DNA of 11,735 nucleotides from Lentisphaeria bacterium (GTDB taxonomy: Bacteria; Verrucomicrobiota; Lentisphaeria; JABSQK01; UBA12247), in NCBI GenBank assembly GCA_003477185.1, contig DMTJ01000572.1:1-11735 (forward strand). The letters are read 5' to 3'. Position numbers and translations under genes: made by a program. The notes under the pieces are model-generated. The model had not been told where the DNA came from and searched no databases. It saw only the letters and a program-made list of their open reading frames with translations. The first letter of the stretch is position 1; each line of letters begins with the position of its first letter. Positions 2,574 to 11,735 of the stretch are shown here, piece by piece.

Positions 2574-3346
2574 CCAAACGAATTGTCCCCTGCCTCGACG
2601 TCCACAACCGCGTCGTCACCAAAGGCGTAAAGTTTCAAAACAACGTCGAAATCGGCGACCCCATCGAGATGGCCGTGGCCTACAGCGATGGCGGCTGTGA
2701 CGAATTGGTCTTCTACGACATCACTGCCTCCGCCGAGCGCCGCCCGATCGATATCGAAATGGTGCGCGACGTCGCTAAGGCCGTCCAGATCCCGTTTGCC
2801 GTCGGCGGCGGGATCTCAGAGTTGGCCGACATGTACCGGGTTCTCGACGCTGGCGCGGAGAAAGTCTCGGTAAATTCCCTGGCGGTGCGGAGTCCGCAGA
2901 TCATTGCCGATGGCGCCAAAGCCTTTGGCTCCCAGTGCATCGTGCTGGGTATGGATCCCGTAGCCCACAACGACCGCGAACGCTTTCCGAGCGGCTACGA
3001 GGTCACCACCCAAGGCTTTCGCACCCGCACCGGCATGGATGCGCTCGAGTGGGCCCGACGAGCCGAAGGGCTCGGCGTCGGCGAAATCGTCGTCAACTCA
3101 GTCGATGCAGACGGAACCCGCGACGGCTTCGAGCTCACGCTCACCGGCATGATCGCTCGCGAAGTCCGCATTCCGGTCGTCGCCAGCGGCGGCGCTGGCA
3201 CCCCACAGCACCTCGCAGACGTCTTTCTTAAAGCCCGCGCTGACGCTGCGATCATCGCTAGCATGGTGCATACCGGCGACTACACGATCGCCGTCATCAA
3301 ACAAGAACTAGACCAAGCTGGCGTGCCCATTCGCCGCCATTGGTAG
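2567..3346 (+). CDS. hisF: Imidazole glycerol phosphate synthase, cyclase subunit
   Basis: HisF uses ammonia delivered by HisH to convert PRFAR into imidazole glycerol phosphate and AICAR. The 259-residue (beta/alpha)8 barrel is full length. The two catalytic aspartates are Asp11 in PCLDV and Asp130 in VLGMDP. Phosphate-binding loops are visible as FAVGGGIS (77-84) and VASGGAGTP (205-213), with VNSVDADGTRDGF (176-188) between them. The stretch after Asp130 (PVAHNDRERFPSGYEVTTQG) differs from the common AKK/WEV form but sits in the normal variable loop. The start is ATG 2567, giving MLTKRIVPCLDV, inside the last codons of hisH. The stop is followed after 2 nt by the tetrapyrrole fusion gene, so the three probably form one transcript. 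Confidence 0.97.
   Translation: MLTKRIVPCLDVHNRVVTKGVKFQNNVEIGDPIEMAVAYSDGGCDELVFYDITASAERRPIDIEMVRDVAKAVQIPFAVGGGISELADMYRVLDAGAEKVSVNSLAVRSPQIIADGAKAFGSQCIVLGMDPVAHNDRERFPSGYEVTTQGFRTRTGMDALEWARRAEGLGVGEIVVNSVDADGTRDGFELTLTGMIAREVRIPVVASGGAGTPQHLADVFLKARADAAIIASMVHTGDYTIAVIKQELDQAGVPIRRHW
2886..2898 (-). repeat. Dispersed 13-bp palindrome, one mismatch (in hisF)
   Basis: TGCGGAGTCCGCA differs at one base from the exact core TGCGGAGTTCGCA and forms a perfect palindrome around a central G. It is read as codons V-R-S-P of hisF (residues 107-110). A chance match is possible for this single copy. Confidence 0.4.
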
Positions 3347-3348
3347 TC

Positions 3349-5445
3349 ATGAAACTAGAAATCGGAACCCGTAGCAGCCAACTTGCCCTGACCCAGGCGC
3401 AGGATGCACTCGAGCGCTTGATGGCCGAACTGCCACGCCTCGAGCTCTCGCTCCAGCCCATGTCCAGCCCCGGAGACCACGATCGCTCGACCGACCTGCG
3501 GGTCAGCGATCCAGACTTCTTCACCCGCTTTCTCGACGAGGCCGTCCTCGCGGGCGAGGTCGACGCGGCTGTGCACAGCGCCAAAGACGTGCCCTACCCT
3601 GTCCGCGAAGGACTCGACTGGTTCTGGCTACCCTGGCACGAGGATCCGCGCGATGCCCTCGTACTGCGCGCCGGAGAATCCCGCGCAGATCTGCCGGACG
3701 CACCAGTTTGCGGCGTTAGCAGCGACCGTCGTGACGAGTGGTGCAAAGCCCAATTTCCAACGGCGGTGCACCAGCCAATCCGCGGCAATATCGAAGAGCG
3801 CATCGCCCAGCTGGATGCAGGCGACTACGACGCGGTGATCATCGCCGGAGCCGCCCTCAACCGGCTCGGCCTCCAGGATCGTATTAGCGAGTGGATTCCT
3901 TGCGCCGAGCTGCCACCGCCCGAAGCACAGGGCTGGCTCTGCCTGACCTTCCGCGAGGATGACGCCCGCTTTCGCACCATCCGTCAACGATTCGTCTATG
4001 CCGTGACCCTGATCGGCGGCGGGCCAGGCGCAGACTACTGCACCCAGGCTGGTATCAAAGCGTTGCAGACCTGCGACGTCTGCCTGTACGACGCCTTGGT
4101 CTCGAAGGACCTGCTGCGCCACATTCCTGCCGACGCCATCGCTATGGATGTCGGCAAGCGCGCCGGACGCTACCAAGTCGAGCGCGTCGATGTCGACCGC
4201 ATGATCAGCGACTACGCCCGCCAAGGCCGCCGCGTAGCGCGCTTAAAAGGCGGTGACCCCGGAATCTTCGGCCGCGCCGCACAGGAAATCGAATCGCTTC
4301 AGGAAATGTCCCTGCCCTGGCGCGTCATTGCGGGCGTCAGCAGCCTCCAGGCCGCGACCAACGAAACTGGCTGGTTTCTCACCCGCCGCGGCGTAAACAC
4401 CGGCTTCACGCTGCTGACTTCGCGACTTGCGAACTCCGCAGTTGCCACGATTCAGGGCGAACATCGGCGAGATCTGCCGCTCGCATTCTTCATGCCGCTC
4501 AGAGTCCTAGACGCGTTGGTCAAAGCCCTGATCGATGAAGGGCGCAATCCCTACCAGCCCTCTGCCATGATTTTCGCCGCTGGTTCGCACCAGCGCCAAG
4601 TGATCTCGGCACCGCTGTGCAAAATTTCTGAGGCCGTGGCCGAGAGCATGATCAACAAGCATCCTGCGCTGTTCATCGTCGGCGATACCATGGCCCCCGA
4701 GTTTCTGCAGTTGCCGACTGGCCCGCTGCGCAATCGGCGCATCTTGTTGACCGGCAGTACCAACCTGATGCCCGCCCTCACCCAAGACGTTCTCTGGCGA
4801 GCTGGCGTTCCCCTGCCCTGCCCGCTGATCGAGCTGACCACGGAGCCTGCAGCCGGAGAGTTACTGCAGAACGTATCCGACTTTGACTGGATTACGGTGA
4901 CCAGCCCAGCCGCAGTACGCTGCCTGTTTGAGCTGCTGCGTGCCTTGGCGATCGACGTGCGCGAGCTACCCAAGATCATGGTCAGCGGCCCCGGCTGCGC
5001 CCAGGCACTCGCATCTTATTGCGTTTCGCCCGACCTCGGCCCTGAGACAGACTTTGGCGCGGCCGGCCTCGTGGCTGCTGCGGCCACAACCGTGCAGCCT
5101 GGCGAACGCGTGCTGCGGCTCAAGTCCGACCGCGCGCCAGCGACGCTGAGTGACGGCCTGCGCGCCATCAAGGCAGAGGTGACCGAATGTGTGTTATACC
5201 GCAATCAGGCAGTGGAACAGCCGGAACTCCTCGAGTTCGACGCCGTGCTATTCCTGAGCAGCAGCGCTGTGGATGGCTTTGTCGACCGCTGGGGCACTGG
5301 CCCGCTGGCAGATACCGTGATCGTGGCCATTGGCCCACCGACGGCGGCGACCTGTGAGCACCACGGTCTCACGCCGTTGGTTGCGAACTCCGCAACCTCA
5401 GGCGGCTGCCTCGACACGCTCCAAAACCACTGGGCGTTCGACTAA
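3349..5445 (+). CDS. HemC(lacking domain 3)-CobA-HemD fusion
   Basis: The 698-residue protein joins three tetrapyrrole steps. Residues 1-214 are porphobilinogen deaminase domains 1 and 2: TRSSQLAL (7-14), HSAKDVP (76-82, catalytic Asp80), SSDRR (124-128), IRGNIEER (144-151). Residues 215-455 are a SUMT/CobA methyltransferase: VTLIGGGPGADY (219-230), YDALVS (247-252), RLKGGDPGIFGRA (298-310), VIAGVSSLQAA (326-336). Residues 456-698 are a divergent HemD: VTSPAAV (517-523), FLSSSAVDGF (635-644), IGPPTAATCEHHGL (661-674). Deaminase domain 3, with the Cys that carries the dipyrromethane cofactor, is missing; the chain goes directly from FRTIRQRF into CobA. The usual VGQGALGIE stretch is PEAQGWLCLTF here. 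I chose ATG 3349 (MKLEIGTRSS); ATG 3340 would overlap hisF. There is no clear ribosome site. The product should feed siroheme, cobalamin or heme synthesis. Whether the deaminase part is active is open. Confidence 0.9.
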   Translation: MKLEIGTRSSQLALTQAQDALERLMAELPRLELSLQPMSSPGDHDRSTDLRVSDPDFFTRFLDEAVLAGEVDAAVHSAKDVPYPVREGLDWFWLPWHEDPRDALVLRAGESRADLPDAPVCGVSSDRRDEWCKAQFPTAVHQPIRGNIEERIAQLDAGDYDAVIIAGAALNRLGLQDRISEWIPCAELPPPEAQGWLCLTFREDDARFRTIRQRFVYAVTLIGGGPGADYCTQAGIKALQTCDVCLYDALVSKDLLRHIPADAIAMDVGKRAGRYQVERVDVDRMISDYARQGRRVARLKGGDPGIFGRAAQEIESLQEMSLPWRVIAGVSSLQAATNETGWFLTRRGVNTGFTLLTSRLANSAVATIQGEHRRDLPLAFFMPLRVLDALVKALIDEGRNPYQPSAMIFAAGSHQRQVISAPLCKISEAVAESMINKHPALFIVGDTMAPEFLQLPTGPLRNRRILLTGSTNLMPALTQDVLWRAGVPLPCPLIELTTEPAAGELLQNVSDFDWITVTSPAAVRCLFELLRALAIDVRELPKIMVSGPGCAQALASYCVSPDLGPETDFGAAGLVAAAATTVQPGERVLRLKSDRAPATLSDGLRAIKAEVTECVLYRNQAVEQPELLEFDAVLFLSSSAVDGFVDRWGTGPLADTVIVAIGPPTAATCEHHGLTPLVANSATSGGCLDTLQNHWAFD
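4427..4441 (+). repeat. Dispersed 15-bp palindrome, exact core (in CobA part)
   Basis: TTGCGAACTCCGCAG contains the exact 13-bp core TGCGAACTCCGCA. It is read as codons L-A-N-S-A (residues 360-364) of the tetrapyrrole fusion. Confidence 0.75.
5379..5397 (+). repeat. Dispersed 15-bp palindrome, best copy (in HemD part)
   Basis: TTGCGAACTCCGCAA (5381-5395) is extended by GG and CC, giving a 7-bp stem GGTTGCG/CGCAACC around the loop AACTC. It is read as V-A-N-S-A (residues 678-682), the same frame as the copy at 4427. Confidence 0.8.
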
Positions 5446-5456
5446 CAATCACGTAT

Positions 5457-5490
5457 GGCGCAACTCCGTTTGCGCCCAAGCGCCAGCTTG
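5457..5490. terminator. Paired stem-loops between convergent genes
   Basis: GGCGCAA (5457-5463) pairs with TTGCGCC (5470-5476) across CTCCGT, and directly after it CAAGC (5477-5481) pairs with GCTTG (5486-5490). They fill the gap between the tetrapyrrole gene (plus) and brnA (minus). There is no T tract on either side, so termination, if any, would need a factor. The loop region AACTCCG matches the centre of the dispersed 15-bp motif. Confidence 0.4.
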
Positions 5491-5517
5491 CAAGATACCT
5501 GCAAAAGATTCCACGAC

Positions 5518-5730
5518 TTAGGATGCCCACTCCATCCCAAGCTTGCGATGCTGAAGCGCACAGTCTCGCAGATAGAGATTAATCAGCGTTTGATAGGGGA
5601 TCCCGTTCTCCTCAGACATCTTCTTGAAATAGTCGATTACGTCTACCCCAAGGCGAATCGTGACTTGCTTCTTCAGCTTGCTGGCGTACGGATTGGGCTT
5701 TGAATCCGAAAAATCGTACTCTTCTCTCAT
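5518..5730 (-). CDS. brnA: BrnA-type antitoxin (ribbon-helix-helix)
   Basis: BrnA antitoxins bind and neutralise the BrnT ribonuclease and repress their own promoter. The 70-residue product fits: a short N-terminal MREEYDFSDSK, then a basic beta strand and helix (KQVTIRLGVDVIDYFKK, 21-37), then GIPYQTLINLYLRD (43-56), the pattern of BrnA/CopG-like ribbon-helix-helix proteins. Here the ribbon-helix-helix part is followed by a short tail, LQHRKLGMEWAS. The start ATG overlaps the brnT stop by 4 nt (ATGA), so it is probably translated by coupling. The gene order, toxin first and antitoxin second, is the normal brnTA order. Confidence 0.9.
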   Translation of the reverse strand: MREEYDFSDSKPNPYASKLKKQVTIRLGVDVIDYFKKMSEENGIPYQTLINLYLRDCALQHRKLGMEWAS

Positions 5731-6014
5731 AGGAACTGTCCGTATTGCTTGCGTTCGTGTGGCTCTGTCTTGCGAGCAGAGATGACTCGAATGACCTCAT
5801 CATCCCTGTTGCGGTGGCAGTGGCAGACGATGAGTAGCCGTGCAGACGTCGACATGCCAAGCAGGATAAAGTGATCTTCTTCTTCGGAGCGATCAGGATC
5901 GAATATGATCAGGCCAAATGGATCAGCAAACGCGGTCGTCGCCTGCTCAAAGGAAAATCCATGCTTCTGCAGTTTGATTGCTGCTTTGTCTGGATCCCAC
6001 TCGAATTCAATCAT
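5727..6014 (-). CDS. brnT: BrnT-type toxin (RelE-fold ribonuclease)
   Basis: BrnT toxins are small RelE-like ribonucleases that stop translation when free of BrnA. The 95-residue product matches the family along its whole length: IEFEWDPDKAAIKLQKHGFS (2-21), FADPFGLIIFDPDRSEEEDHF (29-49), and the C-terminal strand and tail VIRVISARKTEPHERKQY (74-91). No residue or domain is obviously missing, so the toxin may be active. The ATG at 6014 gives the family N-terminus. An in-frame TTG at 6047 would add 11 residues but falls inside the promoter palindrome. The ribosome site is weak (GAGAAA). Mobile addiction modules of this kind often sit in accessory spots; here it lies between hemD and fxsA. Confidence 0.93.
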   Translation of the reverse strand: MIEFEWDPDKAAIKLQKHGFSFEQATTAFADPFGLIIFDPDRSEEEDHFILLGMSTSARLLIVCHCHRNRDDEVIRVISARKTEPHERKQYGQFL

Positions 6015-6020
6015 ATTTAC

Positions 6021-6047
6021 AATGTATTTCTCAGGGGCATACGTCAA
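6021..6047 (-). promoter_or_regulatory. Possible brnTA promoter
   Basis: On the minus strand TTGACG (6047-6042) matches five of six bases of a -35 box. The best -10 box is TACATT (6026-6021) at a short 15-nt spacing. The short spacing makes this tentative, although the position just upstream of brnT is right. Confidence 0.35.
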
Positions 6048-6054
6048 GCTTGAC
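6043..6054. promoter_or_regulatory. Palindromic operator candidate for BrnA
   Basis: GTCAAGCTTGAC is a perfect 12-bp palindrome lying over the -35 region, 29 bp upstream of the brnT start. BrnA-family antitoxins are known to autorepress as dimers, so this is the natural operator candidate. Binding here is inference. Confidence 0.5.
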
Positions 6055-6107
6055 TGTCGCGCCGAAATCTTGGCAGAAAAATCTTCCTCGACCTACATCC
6101 TCGCCTA

Positions 6108-6602
6108 TCAGCCACTATTTAGCTGATCATCCTCGACCGGCCGAGACTCAACGTCGATCACGCCATCGTCCATAGGCTGCTGCGGGTATTGCGCCCCCCC
6201 GAACGGCGGCGCCCCGAATTGCGGGCCAAACTGCATCTTCACATTGGTCCGGTTCTTGAAGTGGCGCACCAGCCAGGCGCGAAACAAGCCACGCGTCACC
6301 GGGATCAGCAGCAGGAAGCCCAGAGCGTCGGTCACAAAACCCGGCGTCAGCAGAACCAGCCCGGCAGCAAAAATCAACAATGCGTCGAGCGCCTCAGTCG
6401 TCGGAACCCGCCCTGCCGCTAAAGACTCTTGAATCCCGCGCCAAGCACGCGCGCCCTGTCGACGTGCCAGCCAGCTACCGGCGATTCCCGTCAGGACGAT
6501 GACAGCGAAGGTATTGCCCCAGCCAATGACGCTGACCTTTAGGATCAGCACCACCTCAATAGCGGGGACAACAATTAGTGCAGTGAGCAGGTAGAAGAAC
6601 AC
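6108..6602 (-). CDS. fxsA: FxsA family inner-membrane protein
   Basis: FxsA is a small cytoplasmic-membrane protein of unclear cellular role; in E. coli its overproduction relieves F-plasmid exclusion of phage T7. The 164-residue product has the family layout: membrane segments at about 3-24 and 27-46, a cytoplasmic loop (AWRGIQESLAAGRVPTTEAL, 53-72), a hydrophobic stretch at 72-103 with the hallmark LLTPGFVTDALGFLLLIP, and a Gln/Gly/Pro-rich acidic tail. I chose GTG 6602 because FFYLLTALIVVPAIEVVLIL aligns with the family N-terminus. The in-frame upstream residues (RCGCSLSVRSRP) look non-coding and overlap a small ORF in another frame. No strong ribosome site is seen. The stop is followed by about 60 bp before the brnTA promoter region; I see no terminator there. 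Confidence 0.9.
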   Translation of the reverse strand: MFFYLLTALIVVPAIEVVLILKVSVIGWGNTFAVIVLTGIAGSWLARRQGARAWRGIQESLAAGRVPTTEALDALLIFAAGLVLLTPGFVTDALGFLLLIPVTRGLFRAWLVRHFKNRTNVKMQFGPQFGAPPFGGAQYPQQPMDDGVIDVESRPVEDDQLNSG

Positions 6603-6609
6603 TCTTGGC

Positions 6610-6714
6610 CTACTGCGAACGCTGAGACTGCACCCGCACCGGCACTGGGCTGGGCGCCGGCGCAAAAGAAAAGGACCGAATAAAGAGTTCGAGCAGTGCG
6701 ATGAAACGAATCAT
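6610..6714 (-). CDS. Possible 34-residue leader peptide upstream of fxsA
   Basis: ATG 6714 opens a 34-codon frame, MIRFIALLELFIRSFSFAPA then a Pro/Val stretch and a basic Gln/Ser tail, ending at TAG 6612-6610. AGGA lies about 10 nt upstream. The N-terminal 18 residues could form a short membrane helix. The stop is 7 nt before the fxsA GTG, so its translation could help ribosomes reach fxsA, which lacks a clear ribosome site. I do not recognise the peptide; it may be a conserved leader or chance. Confidence 0.35.
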   Translation of the reverse strand: MIRFIALLELFIRSFSFAPAPSPVPVRVQSQRSQ

Positions 6715-6818
6715 GGTGGGACATCCTGAATGGGGCTGAGAGAGATACCGCTATCTTGCGACGTGACGTAAGACAGCGTATTCATGCCGATTGTTCACTT
6801 GCCCCAGAAAACAGCTGG

Positions 6819-6846
6819 TTGCCGCGGGTAGAAACTCAGTTACAGT
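6819..6846 (+). promoter_or_regulatory. Possible promoter for the six-gene operon
   Basis: TTGCCG (6819-6824) and TACAGT (6841-6846) are 16 nt apart. Transcription starting about 7 nt after the -10 box would begin at or next to the ATG at 6853, giving a nearly leaderless mRNA. There is no ribosome site before that ATG, which agrees. Confidence 0.35.
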
Positions 6847-6852
6847 TAGCGG

Positions 6853-7401
6853 ATGCATACGCGCACCTTTATCATCGCCTGCGTCTTGTTGGGCATTCTT
6901 GTGTTCCTGGCCCTTCAGAGACAGAGCCAACCCGTGGTCGCGCCGCAGGCGGCCGAGGAGAAGCCAGCTCCCAAGCCGGTGGCCGCCGAGCATGTGGTCC
7001 GCCAGCCCACCAGTAAGGCCACAGATAGCCCCGGAGCCACTTTTCTGCTGGAAGGCTATGCGGACCCCAAACGCACGATCGTCGACGACCTCAAACTGGT
7101 CGACCACGTCTTCCGCGAGTATCAGGTCGCCTTCCGCGGGAATCCAGTCGGGACCAACGCAGAGATCATGGCCCGGTTTCAGGGACATAATTCACGCAAG
7201 ATCGTATACGTACCTGAGCAACACACCTACATTAATGCAGCGGGAGAACTGCTGGATCGCTGGAGCCGTCCGCTGTTCTTCCACCAACAATCCTCGCACC
7301 TAATGGAGATCCGCTCCGCTGGACCGGATGGCAGCCATTGGACCGAGGATGACATCGTTTTCCCGCCCCCTGAGCCCGAGCCCCCTGAAAAAACGCCCTA
7401 A
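6853..7401 (+). CDS. Membrane-anchored protein with GspG-like tail motif
   Basis: The 182-residue product has an N-terminal hydrophobic segment (about 5-21), an Ala/Pro/Lys linker (28-60) and a soluble domain (about 61-170), so it is probably anchored with the domain in the periplasm. Near the end, MEIRSAGPDG (151-160) followed by TEDD (164-167) resembles the Ca-binding C-terminal motif of type II secretion pseudopilins (RSAGPDGxxxTxDDI). It lacks the prepilin peptidase site (G-F-[ST]-L-x-E), so it is not an ordinary pseudopilin. GNPVGTNAEIMARFQGHN (97-114) and AAGELLDRWSRPLFFH (129-144) look like conserved blocks. I recognise no function. It is the first gene of the run, and the aminotransferase ATG follows its stop by 4 nt. 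Confidence 0.75.
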   Translation: MHTRTFIIACVLLGILVFLALQRQSQPVVAPQAAEEKPAPKPVAAEHVVRQPTSKATDSPGATFLLEGYADPKRTIVDDLKLVDHVFREYQVAFRGNPVGTNAEIMARFQGHNSRKIVYVPEQHTYINAAGELLDRWSRPLFFHQQSSHLMEIRSAGPDGSHWTEDDIVFPPPEPEPPEKTP

Positions 7402-7405
7402 AATC

Positions 7406-8518
7406 ATGTCTGTACCTGCTCCCCTGAATCCCGGTCAACGCGTCCTGATGGGCCCTGGTCCCAGCGACGCCAATCCTCGTGTATTGAGGGCCATGGCCAC
7501 GCCGCTCATTGGGCATTTGGACCCGGACTTCATTCAGATCATGGATGAGATCAAGGACATGCTGCGCACAGCGTTTCGGACCCAGAACGAGCTAACGATC
7601 CCGATCTCAGCGCCTGGCAGCGCTGGCATGGAGACTTGCCTGGTGAATCTGCTTGAGCCCGGCGATCGCGCGATCGTCTGCGTCAACGGCGTGTTTGGCG
7701 GACGCATGGCCGACATTGTCGAGCGCTGCGGCGCGACCGCAATCCGAGTCGAGGCCGAATGGGGCCAGCCGATCGCCCCCGAGAAAGTAGCAGACGCGCT
7801 GGCTGCAAACTCTGCAAAGCTCGTTTGCATCGTCCATGCCGAGACGTCGACCGGCGTGCTGCAACCACTGGAAGAGATTGCGAACCTCGCACATGAGCAC
7901 GAAGCGCTCATCGTGGTAGACACAGTCACATCCTTCTGCGGATCCGCGCTGGAAGTCGACGCCTGGGGCTTGGACGCCGTCTACACGGGGACTCAAAAGT
8001 GCCTAAGCGCGCCTCCCGGAATCTCGCCGGTCACGTTCAGTGAGCGCGCGGTAGCGGTCATGGATGCGCGCAAAACGAAGGTCCAGAGCTGGTTTCTCGA
8101 TCTGTCGATGGTGCGGAACTACTGGACAGGTGCCAAACGTGCCTACCACCACACCGCGCCGGTCAGCAGCATGTACGCCCTGCACGAGGCACTGCGCATC
8201 GTCCTCGAAGAAGGACTCGAGCCGCGCTGGAAGCGCCATCAACAGAATCATGTCCTACTTCGCCATGGCTTGCAGGAAATTGGCTTCAAATACCTGGTCT
8301 CACCAGAGTATCGCTTGCCGATGCTGAACGCAGTGCATCTTCCTTCTGGTTGTGAGGATGCCGCACTGCGCGGCGCACTGTTAGATCGTTATGGAATCGA
8401 AGTGGGAGGCGGGCTTGGACAGTTCGCCGGCAAGCTCTGGCGAATCGGCCTGATGGGCGAGAGCTGTACGCCAAACCACGTACACATGCTATTGTCTGCA
8501 CTTCGCTCGTTACTTTAA
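7406..8518 (+). CDS. Alanine/serine-glyoxylate aminotransferase (class V, PLP)
   Basis: The 370-residue protein is a fold-type I, class V aminotransferase of the alanine-glyoxylate / serine-glyoxylate / serine-pyruvate group, which moves an amino group from Ala or Ser to glyoxylate or pyruvate. The N-terminal GPGPSDANPRVLRAM (16-30) and GHLDPDF (36-42) are family signatures. PLP ligands are visible: GSAGMET (71-77), HAETSTG (144-150), Asp172 in VDTVTS, and Schiff-base Lys198 in TGTQKCLSAPPG. Arg346 in WRIGLMG fits the substrate carboxylate-binding position. The start MSVPAPLNPGQRV matches family length; an in-frame ATG at 7328 lies inside the preceding gene. The substrate cannot be fixed from sequence: glycine/serine metabolism or detoxification of phosphoglycolate-derived glyoxylate are the likely roles. 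Confidence 0.92.
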   Translation: MSVPAPLNPGQRVLMGPGPSDANPRVLRAMATPLIGHLDPDFIQIMDEIKDMLRTAFRTQNELTIPISAPGSAGMETCLVNLLEPGDRAIVCVNGVFGGRMADIVERCGATAIRVEAEWGQPIAPEKVADALAANSAKLVCIVHAETSTGVLQPLEEIANLAHEHEALIVVDTVTSFCGSALEVDAWGLDAVYTGTQKCLSAPPGISPVTFSERAVAVMDARKTKVQSWFLDLSMVRNYWTGAKRAYHHTAPVSSMYALHEALRIVLEEGLEPRWKRHQQNHVLLRHGLQEIGFKYLVSPEYRLPMLNAVHLPSGCEDAALRGALLDRYGIEVGGGLGQFAGKLWRIGLMGESCTPNHVHMLLSALRSLL

Positions 8519-8530
8519 GGATCCCAGCCT

Positions 8531-8695
8531 ATGCAACTGCTCTCTCTCACTCTGCTCACTGCCATCTTGGCCGTCGGCTGCATTAAGGTGAAGTCTGACC
8601 CCATTCGAATCGAGCCCATTCAGATTACGATCGACGTCAATGTGAAGATCGATCGCGCGCTGGATGATTTTTTTGATGACCTGGATTCGGAATAG
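8531..8695 (+). CDS. ynbE: YnbE-like outer-membrane lipoprotein
   Basis: This 54-residue gene has a short signal sequence ending in LAVGC, with lipidated Cys17. The mature part, IKVKSDPIRIEPIQITIDVNVKIDRAL, is a run of alternating hydrophobic residues (one or two beta strands), then an acidic end (DDFFDDLDSE). That is the pattern of YnbE. In E. coli YnbE is an outer-membrane lipoprotein that meets the AsmA-like protein YdbH to bridge the envelope for phospholipid transport. The ribosome site AAGGA (8517-8521) overlaps the stop of the aminotransferase gene. The next gene, ydbL-like, supports the identification. No ydbH lies in the window. Confidence 0.85.
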   Translation: MQLLSLTLLTAILAVGCIKVKSDPIRIEPIQITIDVNVKIDRALDDFFDDLDSE

Positions 8696-8703
8696 GAGCT
8701 GGC

Positions 8704-9060
8704 ATGAAACACCTACTACTTACTTTTCTCTTGCTGAGCACGACTACATTCGCCGCCAGCCTCTCGACGATCAAGGCCCAGATGAAGGCCCGTGCTGGGG
8801 AGATTGCAACACTGAAGGCGTCGGGCCACCTCGGTGAGGATGCCAAAGGCCTCCTGAGCGTCCGCACTGCCACACCGGCAGCCACCGCGACCGCGCAAGC
8901 TGAGAATGCGGACCGCAAACTCGTGTACCGCGCACTCGCCGCCAAGGCAGGCGGTAGCGCAGACGCAGTCGGGCAAAGAGCTGCTGCTCGTTACGCAGAA
9001 CGTTCACCGGCCGGCACCTGGCTGCAAGCCGTCGACGGAACCTGGTCCCAAAAGGAGTAG
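8704..9060 (+). CDS. ydbL: YdbL-like periplasmic protein (DUF1318)
   Basis: The 118-residue protein has a clear signal peptide (cleavage probably after TFA, residue 17) and the YdbL pattern: QMKARAGEIATLKASGHLGE (26-45), DAKGLL (46-51), ENADRKLVYRALAAK (67-81), and the C-terminal PAGTWLQAVDGTW (102-114). In E. coli YdbL is proposed to act as a periplasmic chaperone that keeps YnbE from self-assembling and lets it join YdbH. A strong AGGAG site (8694-8698), overlapping the ynbE stop, precedes the ATG. The tight pairing with the ynbE-like gene is the same as in Enterobacteria. Confidence 0.92.
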   Translation: MKHLLLTFLLLSTTTFAASLSTIKAQMKARAGEIATLKASGHLGEDAKGLLSVRTATPAATATAQAENADRKLVYRALAAKAGGSADAVGQRAAARYAERSPAGTWLQAVDGTWSQKE

Positions 9061-9063
9061 CCC

Positions 9064-10533
9064 ATGCACTTTACCAGCGCCTTTCTTGTTGCGATGGTCG
9101 CAACCTTTACTTACGCCCAGAACATGACGCCGGTCTGGGCAGTCATGCCCGACGATCTAGCGCCGAAAGCGATTGATCCAGTCGACCCTGATAATGGGCA
9201 GCTGATCGTCTTCGTGCGCCCGAATCAGTCCGAGGTCGACAATACCTTCCAAGAGGAAGTCCTGCCGGAAGTACGCAAAATTGCCGCTGAAATTGGCACC
9301 GCGCTGCATGTCTGGGATAGCCGCCTTGGCAGCCCTGAGGGAATAACGATCACGCCGAGCATCGTCTTCGAGAATTCCCGCGGGCGCTCGGTGTACCAAG
9401 GCCGTTATCGCAACTTGGACCGCATTCGCACCTTTATTCGTACCTCACGCTACGTGCCCCGAGGCGACAGCCTGCGCGAGTGGTCGAACATTCCAGTCTG
9501 GACCAACGGCCGCGCTCACCTGATCGCACCGATCAAAGTCAGCTCTCTCGGCGGCACACTGCCAGAAGAGTACTGCGAGAAGCTTTGGCAGCAGGACACC
9601 CGCCACTGGGTAGACGAAGGCTTGGTCAAATTCTGGAATAAGGAGACCTATATGCAAGGCTCCACGGACCGGCTGTTCTACATGGATTTCTACCCGTGGC
9701 TCGGCGAGGACGGGACGCTGCATGTATCTGCCTCGCTGTTTTCGCAATTTCACTGCAAGAAGCCAGTCTTCACCACCGGCGACACTCCATTCAAAGGTCC
9801 GTGGAAATACCGGCGCTGGATCTTCCGCCGCGCAGCCCGCGCGCTCGAGGACGCCGTGGCAGTCACCATGGCCGATCCATCGCTCGGCGATGGCTTTGAC
9901 ATTGTCGAGTCCTACATGTGCAAGTTCCGCTGGGCTGCCCTAGCAATGCCCGTGCCTGCCCCGGCAGAGAACGCCCCGCTGGCGGTCGCCCCGAAGCTGC
10001 CCACATCCTACAGAGTTGCGAACTCCTCAAATCTGCCGCCGCAGGTGCAGTTCGCCTTTCCTGCCCCGCTCGATGGCCATCGCGGTGAAGCGCAGGGCGT
10101 CAGCGGTACACTCAATATCCCTGGACTGGACATCAACAAAGCCAGCGGCATCATCACCGTGGACGTAGGCCGCCTCACCATGGGCGACTCTGAGTTGGAC
10201 GCAGTGATTCGCGGCAGCTTGTATCTGGATGCGAAGACGCACCCAAAGGCAAGCTTCGCAATCAAGTCGCTCGTTGCAGAACAGCCTCTGACGTACGGCG
10301 TGCAGGTCCCGACAGAGATGAGTGGCACCTTCACCATGAAAGGAAAGCCGAGCCAGCTGACGCTACCTGGCTTTCTGGAAGCCGTCGTCATGGAGAATGG
10401 CAAGCCCGCCGTCATCCTGACCAGCGGTTTTGACGTGAATCTGAATGACTACGGCATTCCCCCTGCGGACGGACCAGAGCCAGAGAATCACACGCTAAAT
10501 TTTGATATCCGCACGGTTTTCGCTGGACAATAG
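9064..10533 (+). CDS. Secreted protein with C-terminal YceI domain
   Basis: The 489-residue product starts with a signal peptide (cleavage probably after TYA, residue 18). Residues about 45-128 (LIVFVRPNQ, then TPSIVFENSRGRSVYQGRY) read like a thioredoxin-like fold but have no CXXC pair. Residues about 135-290 form a Trp/Tyr-rich middle part that I do not recognise, with only three Cys (171, 231, 286). An Ala/Pro linker (293-310) leads to a YceI-like domain (about 311-489): VQFAFPAP, GVSGTLNI, SGIITVDVGRLTMGDSELDA, SLYLDAKTHPKASFAI. YceI domains are lipocalin-like barrels that bind isoprenoid-type lipids. The AGGAG site (9053-9057) overlaps the ydbL stop region, so the gene is probably expressed with the YnbE/YdbL pair. 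A role in envelope lipid handling is inference. Confidence 0.8.
   Translation: MHFTSAFLVAMVATFTYAQNMTPVWAVMPDDLAPKAIDPVDPDNGQLIVFVRPNQSEVDNTFQEEVLPEVRKIAAEIGTALHVWDSRLGSPEGITITPSIVFENSRGRSVYQGRYRNLDRIRTFIRTSRYVPRGDSLREWSNIPVWTNGRAHLIAPIKVSSLGGTLPEEYCEKLWQQDTRHWVDEGLVKFWNKETYMQGSTDRLFYMDFYPWLGEDGTLHVSASLFSQFHCKKPVFTTGDTPFKGPWKYRRWIFRRAARALEDAVAVTMADPSLGDGFDIVESYMCKFRWAALAMPVPAPAENAPLAVAPKLPTSYRVANSSNLPPQVQFAFPAPLDGHRGEAQGVSGTLNIPGLDINKASGIITVDVGRLTMGDSELDAVIRGSLYLDAKTHPKASFAIKSLVAEQPLTYGVQVPTEMSGTFTMKGKPSQLTLPGFLEAVVMENGKPAVILTSGFDVNLNDYGIPPADGPEPENHTLNFDIRTVFAGQ
9088..9104. repeat. Hairpin with the same arms as the dispersed motif
   Basis: GTTGCGA and TCGCAAC flank TGG in the signal-peptide codons of the YceI-domain gene. 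The arms match the dispersed 15-bp motif, but the centre differs at three bases, so this may be coincidence. Confidence 0.25.
10016..10030 (+). repeat. Dispersed 15-bp palindrome, one mismatch (in YceI gene)
   Basis: TTGCGAACTCCTCAA differs from the full motif by one base (G to T). It is read as V-A-N-S-S (residues 318-322), at the start of the YceI domain. Confidence 0.65.
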
Positions 10534-10535
10534 CC

Positions 10536-11735
10536 CTGCAACAGCCCTGGAGTTTCACGGACGCTGAGGCGTTCCTAGAGGATCTGTGCCGAGGCGGCGT
10601 AAAGCTGGGTCTCGAGAACACCAGCGAGCTGCTGGCTGCGTTGGAGAATCCGCAACGCCAGCTGCCCGCGATCCACGTGGCCGGCACCAACGGCAAAGGC
10701 TCGGTATGCTCGCTACTCTCGGCCGCGCTGACCAGCCAGGGGCTGCGGCCGGGCCTGTATACGTCCCCGCACCTCGTCTCAGTCCGGGAACGCTTGCGAA
10801 TTGGTGGTGAAGCAATCAGCGAAGCCAAGTTTGCGGAGATCGCAGCCGGCATCCGAGCAGACGCCGCACGGCTCTTCCCAGCCGTCGGCCCCACCCCGAC
10901 CTTCTTCGAGTTTCTCACGGCCATGGCATGGCGCTGGTTTGCCCAGGAAAGTGCTAAGTTCGCAATCCTGGAAGTGGGCATGGGCGGCAGGCTGGACTCG
11001 ACTAATGTCTGCGAGCCCGCGATTACGGTGATCACCTCAATCGGGCTGGATCACATCGGCGCGCTGGGCAATACCCTGGCAGAGATCGCGGCCGAGAAGG
11101 CGGGCATTCTCAAGCCAGGCGTGCCATTGGTTTGCGGAGTTCGCAACCCTGAGGCGCGGGAGGTGATTATGGCCAGAGCCAGTGAGCTGCGGGTGCCGGT
11201 CTGGCAGCTGGGTGAGGACTTCGCGGTGTTGGCGACGGAGCCAACGGACGCTGGGCAGCAGGTGCAGCTACGCCTGCCGACCGGGCAATGTACTGCGGAG
11301 ATCGCACTGCGAGGTTCGCATCAGGCAGACAATACGGCAGTGGCAGCGGCGACGCTGGCGCGGCTGGCTCGCCCGACTACCGGGCTAGAGCGAGCGCGTT
11401 GGCCAGGGCGTCTGGAGCAGCTGTCGAACACGGTGTTATTGGATGGAGCGCACAACATGGCTGCGATGCATGAGTTAGTGGCGGCACTTCCCGCGAACGA
11501 GCGCTATGTGGCACTGTTCGCTACGATGATTGACAAGGAGTGGCAGGAGATGTTGGCACTGTTGGCACCGCATCTTTGCGAACTCCGCATCACCCGGGCG
11601 GAAAACCCGCGGTCAGTGGATCCGCAGGTCGTGGCGCTGCATGTGCGGGAGAAGCACCCAGCGCTGCAGGTGGTCACGGAGCCGGACGCCTATGCGGCAG
11701 CCGAGCTGATCGCGCAAGAGCAGCGACCTGCCCTG
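10536..11735 (+). CDS. folC: Folylpolyglutamate / dihydrofolate synthase, partial
   Basis: FolC adds glutamate to (dihydro)folates using ATP, a Mur-ligase-type reaction in the cytoplasm. The 400 codons before the window edge show the family order: HVAGTNGKGSV P-loop (47-57), LYTSPHL (74-80), LEVGMGGRLDSTNV (145-158), IGLDHIGALGNTLAEIAAEK (169-188, the Lys that is normally carbamylated), WPGRLEQL (289-296) and LLDGAHN (301-307). The stop lies beyond 11735. The N-terminus is odd. After the in-frame TGA near 10504 there is no ATG, GTG or TTG before residue 36. Homology asks for a start near CTG 10536 (LQQPWSFTDAEAFLEDL). ATA 10530, overlapping the stop of the preceding gene, is the other option. 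Positions here count from CTG. Coupled re-initiation, or a sequence error, could explain this. Confidence 0.92.
   Translation, partial: MQQPWSFTDAEAFLEDLCRGGVKLGLENTSELLAALENPQRQLPAIHVAGTNGKGSVCSLLSAALTSQGLRPGLYTSPHLVSVRERLRIGGEAISEAKFAEIAAGIRADAARLFPAVGPTPTFFEFLTAMAWRWFAQESAKFAILEVGMGGRLDSTNVCEPAITVITSIGLDHIGALGNTLAEIAAEKAGILKPGVPLVCGVRNPEAREVIMARASELRVPVWQLGEDFAVLATEPTDAGQQVQLRLPTGQCTAEIALRGSHQADNTAVAAATLARLARPTTGLERARWPGRLEQLSNTVLLDGAHNMAAMHELVAALPANERYVALFATMIDKEWQEMLALLAPHLCELRITRAENPRSVDPQVVALHVREKHPALQVVTEPDAYAAAELIAQEQRPAL
10831..10845 (-). repeat. Dispersed palindrome, one core mismatch (in folC)
   Basis: TTGCGGAGATCGCAG is the reverse orientation with one mismatch in the 13-bp core (T to A). 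It is read in folC as part of K-F-A-E-I-A. Confidence 0.45.
11132..11146 (-). repeat. Dispersed 15-bp palindrome, exact reverse copy (in folC)
   Basis: TTGCGGAGTTCGCAA is the exact reverse complement of the full motif. It is read as V-C-G-V-R-N (residues 199-204), a frame and orientation different from the copies in the tetrapyrrole gene. Confidence 0.8.
11294..11320 (-). repeat. Two adjoining degenerate copies (in folC)
   Basis: TGCGGAGATCGCA (11294-11306) has one mismatch to the reverse core. TGCGAGGTTCGCA (11308-11320) has two, yet it forms a perfect TGCGA/TCGCA hairpin. They are one base apart. Confidence 0.4.
11576..11590 (+). repeat. Dispersed 15-bp palindrome, exact core (in folC)
   Basis: TTGCGAACTCCGCAT contains the exact 13-bp core. 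It is read as L-C-E-L-R-I (residues 347-352), not the L/V-A-N-S-A frame used by the plus-orientation copies at 4427 and 5381. Confidence 0.75.

Follow-up and report, generated by a model that had tools for sequence, protein, structure and literature searches.

The gapped palindromic word TGCG-N5-CGCA is repeated in great excess in the genome of a Lentisphaeria bacterium (GenBank assembly GCA_003477185.1), from which an 11,735-nt stretch, contig DMTJ01000572.1 (hereafter the window), was analysed, and in a series of related genomes. In the fragmented assembly of the window's genome (3.95 Mb, 612 contigs), the word occurs 1456 times compared with 132 times for the reversed pattern, which served as the control for all counts, and its strict form, TGCGRASTYCGCA, is found in 736 places compared with none for the control. 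It is nearly certain that the word is real and recognised, and the best explanation, adopted here tentatively, is an uptake-type self-recognition word with a dimeric reader, maintained by molecular drive. An earlier reading of the window, made from its letters alone (the sequence-only reading), had described a 15-bp palindrome scattered inside genes in both orientations; its interpretation is partly supported, and the word is a larger phenomenon than that reading saw.

Matches with at most one mismatch number 1009 in the window's genome versus 6 for the reversed control, a count neither near expectation nor confined to the locus. The strands are balanced (492 versus 517 for the asymmetric form in the window's genome; further strand counts 49/46 and 21/22). 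A spacer scan of ~197 kb of this genome returned 106 copies of TGCG..CGCA at spacer 5 and 3–13 copies at any of the other spacers in the range 0–11; the extended arms TTGCG..CGCAA gave 33 copies at spacer 5 and 0 or 1 elsewhere. In the window's genome the word usually reads TTGCGRA-N-TYCGCAA, with a middle that is mostly RASTY. The dyad is imperfectly symmetric here because the middle AACTC far exceeds AAGTC (33 and 5 copies in the same ~197 kb). Lower-GC relatives retain the arms and their 5-base spacing without the middle, and the conserved word is therefore TGCG-N5-CGCA, with a fixed 5-base gap and a variable middle, rather than a contiguous sequence. The repeated palindrome of the sequence-only reading is thus a real word, for which odd gapped dyad is the better description.

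The preference for these arms is highly specific. Among the 256 palindromic 4-N5-4 words, TGCG/CGCA is the sole outlier in each of four sets (the window's own genome, genome G095, the Lentisphaera-like set and the g55 set), with scores of 25–47 compared with 3.8–5.1 for the runner-up. Lineages differ in the flanking and central bases that they favour (inner RA/TY in most sets, a near-free middle with an outer T-run in the Lentisphaera set, and a CGCG arm variant in g55), and these preferences resemble dialects. In the g55 genomes, CGCG-N5-CGCA and TGCG-N5-CGCG are present in 13 and 12 copies versus about 2 at other spacers, and the CGCG arm may be a second form of the word that is also accepted. 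A modest excess of near-misses is seen (in G095, for example, 33 versus 15 expected, with 65 intact words). The one-off variants in excess affect the outer base in the window's own genome (T1C, T1A) and g55 (T1C), and the inner base in G095 and the Lentisphaera set; this spectrum is not decisive. Seven other over-represented 10-mers of the sampled stretches were looked up and proved to be tandem or locally clustered repeats, or to have few copies.

A check of coordinates and pattern located ten TGCG-N5-CGCA sites in the window, all inside genes. The 13-mer TGCGAACTCCGCA is exact at 4428–4440 (+), 5382–5394 (+), 11133–11145 (−) and 11577–11589 (+); it matches with one mismatch at 2886–2898 (−), 10017–10029 (+), 10832–10844 (−) and 11294–11306 (−), and with two at 7879–7891 and 11308–11320. 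All of these coordinates had been given in the sequence-only reading and are confirmed. Further matches with two mismatches lie at 3158, 3709, 7804 and 10952. In total, 15 matches with at most two mismatches were scored (2886 on both strands), compared with a mean of 0.59 and a maximum of 5 in 200 shuffles. The site at 9090–9102 had been overlooked, and the match at 10017 is a near-miss only. The sites, listed without strand except for the near-miss, are:

2886–2898, TGCGGAGTCCGCA, in hisF, frame 1
4428–4440, TGCGAACTCCGCA, in the hemC-cobA-hemD fusion, encoding LANSA, frame 2
5382–5394, TTGCGAACTCCGCAA, with both outer T/A present, in the hemC-cobA-hemD fusion, encoding VANSA, frame 2
7879–7891, TGCGAACCTCGCA, in a class-V aminotransferase gene, frame 2
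9090–9102, TGCGATGGTCGCA, in a YceI-domain gene, encoding VAMVA, frame 2
10832–10844, TGCGGAGATCGCA, in folC, frame 2
11133–11145, TTGCGGAGTTCGCAA (outer bases included), in folC, frame 0
11294–11306, TGCGGAGATCGCA, in folC, frame 2
11308–11320, TGCGAGGTTCGCA, in folC, frame 1, 1 bp from the preceding site
11577–11589, TGCGAACTCCGCA, in folC, frame 0
10017–10029, plus strand, TGCGAACTCCTCA, a near-miss with a single arm base off, not a TGCG-N5-CGCA site

The fusion gene is a single open frame (3340–5445) with HemC, tetrapyrrole methylase (CobA-type) and HemD domains. A BrnA/BrnT toxin-antitoxin pair, identified with Pfam, occupies 5518–6047 and has no copy of the word inside. The sequence-only reading had described the copies as concentrated from 4.4 kb onward and absent from the insertion sequence and the toxin-antitoxin pair; these stretches are too short for such a pattern to carry weight, and spacing is about random in larger samples.

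Placement relative to genes was assessed in seven sample sets, using a simple purpose-written gene caller. Because the first 14 contigs sampled from the window's own genome, and part of the contigs from G001 and G052, were picked for having copies, sample densities for these genomes are biased upward; whole-genome counts are unaffected. Coding and intergenic densities of the word do not differ significantly in any of the seven sets (smallest p 0.18), with intergenic values that are lower, not significantly, in the Lentisphaera set (0.11 versus 0.30 per kb coding) and in g55 (0.16 versus 0.35 per kb). The word is present in all three reading frames and between genes. The commonest coding frame, T|GCG|NNN|NNC|GCA (starting at the third codon position), encodes Ala-x-x-Ala and accounts for 62/97, 45/54, 29/36 and 41/53 of the coding copies in four sets; its share elsewhere is 11/20 in G067, 5/15 in G006 and 11/23 in a pooled GC-rich set. 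The sequence-only reading had correctly listed LANSA, VANSA, CGVRN and CELR among the encoded peptides and had missed that in four of the seven sets most coding copies fall in this one frame.

Its conclusion that conservation acts on the DNA word rather than on a peptide holds, given the use of three frames, the comparable intergenic density, and the fact that only spacer 5 stands out among the frame-matched spacers 2, 5, 8, 11, 14 and 17. In the four positive sets pooled, spacers 2, 8, 11, 14 and 17 yield 8, 8, 18, 11 and 21 copies, compared with 271 at spacer 5. Occupancy of Ala-x-x-Ala spots was measured in open frames of at least 250 codons in all six frames, some of which are spurious. 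The word is carried by 73/936, 39/197, 31/196 and 43/354 of these spots in the four positive sets (~8–20%), and by 3/673 in six negatives.

The word has been seen only in the class Lentisphaeria in this sampling. A genome was called a carrier if its whole-genome TGCG-N5-CGCA count was at least 150 and at least three times the reversed control, a rule fixed post hoc with the table of counts already seen. Carriers by this criterion number 24 among the 197 Lentisphaeria genomes and belong to 13 families (G000, G001, G006, G010, G013, G014, G018, G050, G052, G059, G063, G067, G082, G085 to G092, G094, G095 and G097). Besides the window's genome, strong carriers include G095 (1748 versus 19), G018 (1437 versus 26, in 6.0 Mb), G013 (1155 versus 22) and G088 (1717 versus 75), and the lowest ratios belong to G059 (1395 versus 453) and G001 (470 versus 143). 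Carrier densities span roughly tenfold, from ~0.06 to 0.7 copies per kb (0.70 in G095; 0.07 net in G001 and G059). In short stretches of GC-rich carriers the peak at spacer 5 is unclear for G001 (6 versus up to 7) and G082 (4 versus up to 4) and weak for G014 (5 versus up to 4); the carrier status of these three comes from whole-genome strict counts of 120, 466 and 532 versus 0, 1 and 2. Three weak cases, G030, G046 and G060, lie outside the 24 (strict counts 34, 8 and 26 versus 0, 0 and 5). The strict form occurs at least once in 109 of the 197 genomes, and beyond the carriers and weak cases these are mostly one to four copies, which represents background.

The distribution is patchy at short evolutionary range. 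Families f5, f11, f17, f18, f22 and f23 mix carriers and non-carriers, and the family of G010, G013 and G018 includes non-carrying sister genera (e.g. G016, 19 versus 8, and G021, 20 versus 19). Carrier G013 is apparently the cultured Lentisphaera marina IMCC 11369 (NZ_JAQZZL010000001.1), a record in which two exact 15-mer matches share their coordinates with two G013 sites.

An exact 15-mer scan of species genomes returned at least 97 loci. Among the matches listed, 16 loci have two or more strict sites, all in records named Lentisphaeria, Lentisphaerae, Victivallales or, in one case, Kiritimatiellota (M_MetaBat.195), and no such locus was found outside these named groups. In a phylum sample of 387 genomes, 256 of them outside Lentisphaeria, raised counts outside the class were seen in two, G439 (188 versus 56, crossing the rule) and G368 (149 versus 54, just below it). 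Within 181 kb of the former and 125 kb of the latter, copies at spacer 5 do not outnumber those at other spacers; since both fail this spacing control, no carrier is counted among the 256. Viral contigs gave 48 single exact 15-mer matches; no stretch examined around them had more than one strict site, and these matches are taken for chance on an estimated collection size.

Comparisons between relatives show that the word is kept more often than control words while the surrounding DNA diverges. The alignment of a 42.7 kb G088 contig with G089 spans 29,986 columns at 78.7% identity. Fourteen of the contig's 18 sites are aligned, and 10 of these 14 are kept, compared with 8 of 60 words with permuted arms and the same gap (Fisher p 3.7e-5; binomial p 6e-5); eight such positions are kept in 20.6% of all windows. 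In six of the ten kept sites the arms are unchanged though the middle is altered. The four sites that are not kept comprise two with a CGCG arm, the variant enriched in that genus, one that has diverged, and one with a 3-base gap. Three sites are present only in G089, each differing from the G088 sequence by one arm base and either gained in G089 or lost from G088; copies appear to form by point substitution. In the first 20 kb of the G088 contig, 3/5 sites are kept relative to G090 and 2/4 relative to G091, and the sites of this stretch compared with G089 are included in the alignment above. The Lentisphaera-like comparisons were drawn from the ComEC regions of G010, G013 and G018, and the pairs overlap and are not independent. 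Sites are kept in 5/7 cases for G013-G018, 2/6 for G013-G010 and 1/2 for G010-G018, with window expectations of 0.20, 0.11 and 0.11 and control words kept in 4/20, 0/13 and 0/7, respectively.

As a separate observation, contig 4 of G088 contains dispersed repeats of ~50–230 bp (11535–11766, 17824–17957, 1042–1137, 14222–14325 and 10376–10455; L189) that have many matches in G089, G090 and G091 at ~65–100% identity and possibly constitute a family resembling miniature inverted-repeat transposable elements.

Along the chromosome, the strict sites are distributed evenly where this was assessed. The 51 strict sites on contig 1 of G013 (2.7 Mb) are consistent with a uniform distribution (Kolmogorov-Smirnov p 0.89; Rayleigh p 0.71), as are the 20 on contig 1 of G010 (p 0.72), and no bias to one chromosome region was detected on these two contigs. 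Regular spacing between neighbouring sites was not found, intervals being about random in the larger samples; pairs less than 300 bp apart are if anything slightly above the null mean (23 versus 16.8 in the window's own genome and 20 versus 12.2 in G095). In G010 (2.81 and 2.65 Mb) and in G013 (2.73 and 2.40 Mb, besides a third contig) there are two large contigs, which may be two chromosomes.

A sequence-recognising reader of the word very probably exists, because the gap is fixed, one word of 256 is preferred, and sites are maintained above background. Because the word is symmetric, a dimeric reader is suggested, probably a symmetric DNA-binding protein that contacts the half-site (T)TGCG(RA). 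This reader would most likely belong to the DNA-uptake, or natural-transformation, route. Incoming DNA that contains the word would be preferred, such that alleles bearing it would displace alleles that do not, and this biased replacement (molecular drive) could accumulate and maintain hundreds to more than 1000 copies with no need for a benefit from each copy. In a lineage that lost the reader or its preference, the copies would decay, leaving a patchy distribution within families. Drive through uptake would explain the copy numbers, the spread, the placement where proteins allow it, the tenfold range of density and the absence from sister genera. The copy number, dispersion, exact recognition, maintenance, Ala-x-x-Ala occupancy, patchiness and dialect-like preferences are counted in favour of the uptake explanation, as is an open ComEC gene (the uptake channel) found in the window's genome, and the first of the options raised by the sequence-only reading, an uptake signal, fits the copy number, dispersion, maintenance and patchy distribution. 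It is conceivable, at something short of even chances, that TGCG-N5-CGCA is the first gapped-palindrome self-recognition word, one by which a dimeric reader on the route of DNA uptake or entry tells self DNA from foreign, with drive having filled ~8–20% of the Ala-x-x-Ala sites that permit it in some genomes.

Several observations weigh against this explanation. The uptake channel gene ComEC (PF03772) is present in 184 of the 197 class genomes, carriers and non-carriers alike, and was not found in carrier G082; its presence therefore does not discriminate carriers. The link between the word and transformation is itself an inference. The DNA uptake sequence (DUS) and the uptake signal sequence (USS) are not known to be palindromic, and an intergenic excess of the kind known for DUS is absent in the seven sets. 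The arms are identical in all 13 families, which were searched with these arms alone. Sites are not evenly spaced, close pairs being if anything slightly commoner, and retention is weaker in some pairs (G013-G010, 2/6; G088-G091, 2/4). Finally, molecular drive and selection on each site are not distinguished by these data.

A somewhat unlikely alternative is that the word is bound by a homodimeric protein particular to Lentisphaeria that organises the chromosome or associates with the nucleoid, and that selection on nucleoid structure, replication or segregation keeps the copies. An odd-length palindrome of 13 bp is what a dimer typically binds; the symmetry is explained as well as or better than by uptake, and the site of the segregation protein MatP, GTGACRNYGTCAC, is similar in shape. 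The even spread of strict copies along contig 1 of G013, the lack of a significant coding or intergenic preference and the retention of sites above background are also compatible with such a protein. The missing regional bias on the two contigs counts against it, and the tenfold range of density together with the word-free sister genera would be odd for a core chromosome function; more than 1000 individually selected sites would be required in several genomes. Of the nucleoid or segregation protein offered by the sequence-only reading, the nucleoid protein thus survives as a rival, and segregation biased to origin or terminus is disfavoured by the even spread over 2.7 Mb.

A mechanism like that proposed by Elhai for the cyanobacterial highly iterated palindrome (HIP) is rather unlikely. 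Here, a methyltransferase would mark the word, and methyl-directed repair would create and preserve it. In the portion of Elhai's account available (PMC4390886), a high HIP frequency is linked to such methyltransferases, and HIP1 shares with the word a GC-rich palindrome of 8 fixed bases, a high copy number and lineage-wide presence with losses. The lead of outer-base variants in the window's own genome and g55 resembles the HIP1 deviations reported there, and the lead of inner-base variants in G095 and the Lentisphaera set does not. Three methyltransferase families were searched in 40 genomes, 22 of the 24 carriers and 18 non-carriers. PF01555 was found in 16/22 carriers and 12/18 non-carriers, PF00145 in 13/22 and 11/18, and PF02086 in 10/22 and 6/18; none of the three tracks the word among these genomes, and they are rejected as its reader. 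All three are absent from the strong carriers G013, G018 and G095 (the last 86% complete), as they are from the non-carriers G021, G039, G047 and G065. The HIP1-like mechanism is weakened by the absence of the three families from these strong carriers and keeps some probability through type I (PF02384) and type IIG enzymes.

The same search returned a strong Dam-type match (PF02086, E ~1e-52 to 1e-56) in five of the six searched genomes of family f21 (G085, G087, G088, G089 and G091), compared with no match better than 1e-19 in the other 16 searched carriers. Genome G002 (2.0 Mb, 3 contigs) has eleven PF01555 matches, the second highest number among the 40 genomes.

The geometry of TGCG-N5-CGCA equals that of SfiI sites (GGCCNNNNNGGCC), and as the 4-N5-4 target of a restriction-modification system or another means of self-marking the word would flag self DNA. 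This is improbable: for restriction sites one would expect avoidance or neutrality, whereas the word is enriched tenfold or more, and the absence of the methyltransferase families from G013, G018 and G095 applies here as well. A mobile small palindrome, which the sequence-only reading had listed, or a hairpin conserved for its pairing has very little in its favour. Orthologous places that lack the word nearly always hold sequence of the same length rather than an empty site, the 3-base gap in the G088/G089 alignment being the only difference in length. The arms do fold as single-stranded DNA (−4.1 to −5.9 kcal/mol), in agreement with the TTGCG/CGCAA hairpin of that reading, but base pairing by itself is not the conserved feature: doubly changed, complementary arms were observed 157 times versus 142 expected (four sets, 12 variants), with one variant, TGCA in G095, standing out (11 versus 2.9). 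This lack of an excess of compensatory double variants rules against a hairpin function. The production of the word by composition, codon usage or a peptide, with GCG and GCA codons in Ala-x-x-Ala giving it by chance, would account for the frame that holds most coding copies in four sets and is otherwise ruled out by the frame-matched spacers, by the near-empty Ala-x-x-Ala spots of the six negatives, whose Ala codon use is nearly that of the window's genome, and by an intergenic density that is not significantly lower in any set.

Words iterated ~1000 times per genome are known from few lineages, and they have either opened up mechanisms (Chi, DUS and USS) or stayed a puzzle (HIP1). Among the papers listed by literature searches of the open-licence part of PubMed Central, which also covered Lentisphaera in connection with uptake, palindromes or competence, none described this word. 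It has an unusual gapped-palindrome form and is apparently present in the cultured Lentisphaera marina, and the non-carrying sister genera provide natural controls; the identity of its reader, and any control that it exerts over DNA exchange, are thus directly addressable.

In comparison with known systems, sites of the matS/MatP type resemble the word as 13-bp odd palindromes located inside genes; matS, however, is present in tens of copies confined to the terminus, whereas the word is present in hundreds to more than 1000 copies, evenly spread where tested. Repetitive extragenic palindromic (REP) sequences and bacterial interspersed mosaic elements (BIMEs) are likewise high-copy repeated palindromes, but they spread as units, and REPs are extragenic according to the portion of the source available (PMC2817692); copies of the word are mostly within genes, with no sign of insertion. 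HIP1 and the alternate HIPs of cyanobacteria (GCGATCGC) share with it the GC-rich palindrome of eight fixed bases, the high copy number, the location inside genes and the lineage-wide occurrence with losses; HIP1 is contiguous, in contrast to the 5-bp gap of the word, for which PF00145, PF01555 and PF02086 are missing in three strong carriers. DUS of Neisseriaceae and USS of Pasteurellaceae resemble the word in their hundreds to thousands of dispersed copies, their lineage variants and their non-carrying relatives. From these sequences, which are not known to be palindromic, the word differs as a symmetric gapped dyad with no intergenic enrichment and with the same arms in 13 families. DUS itself ranges from 943 to ~3600 copies per genome, with dialects, in the portion of the source available (PMC3630211).

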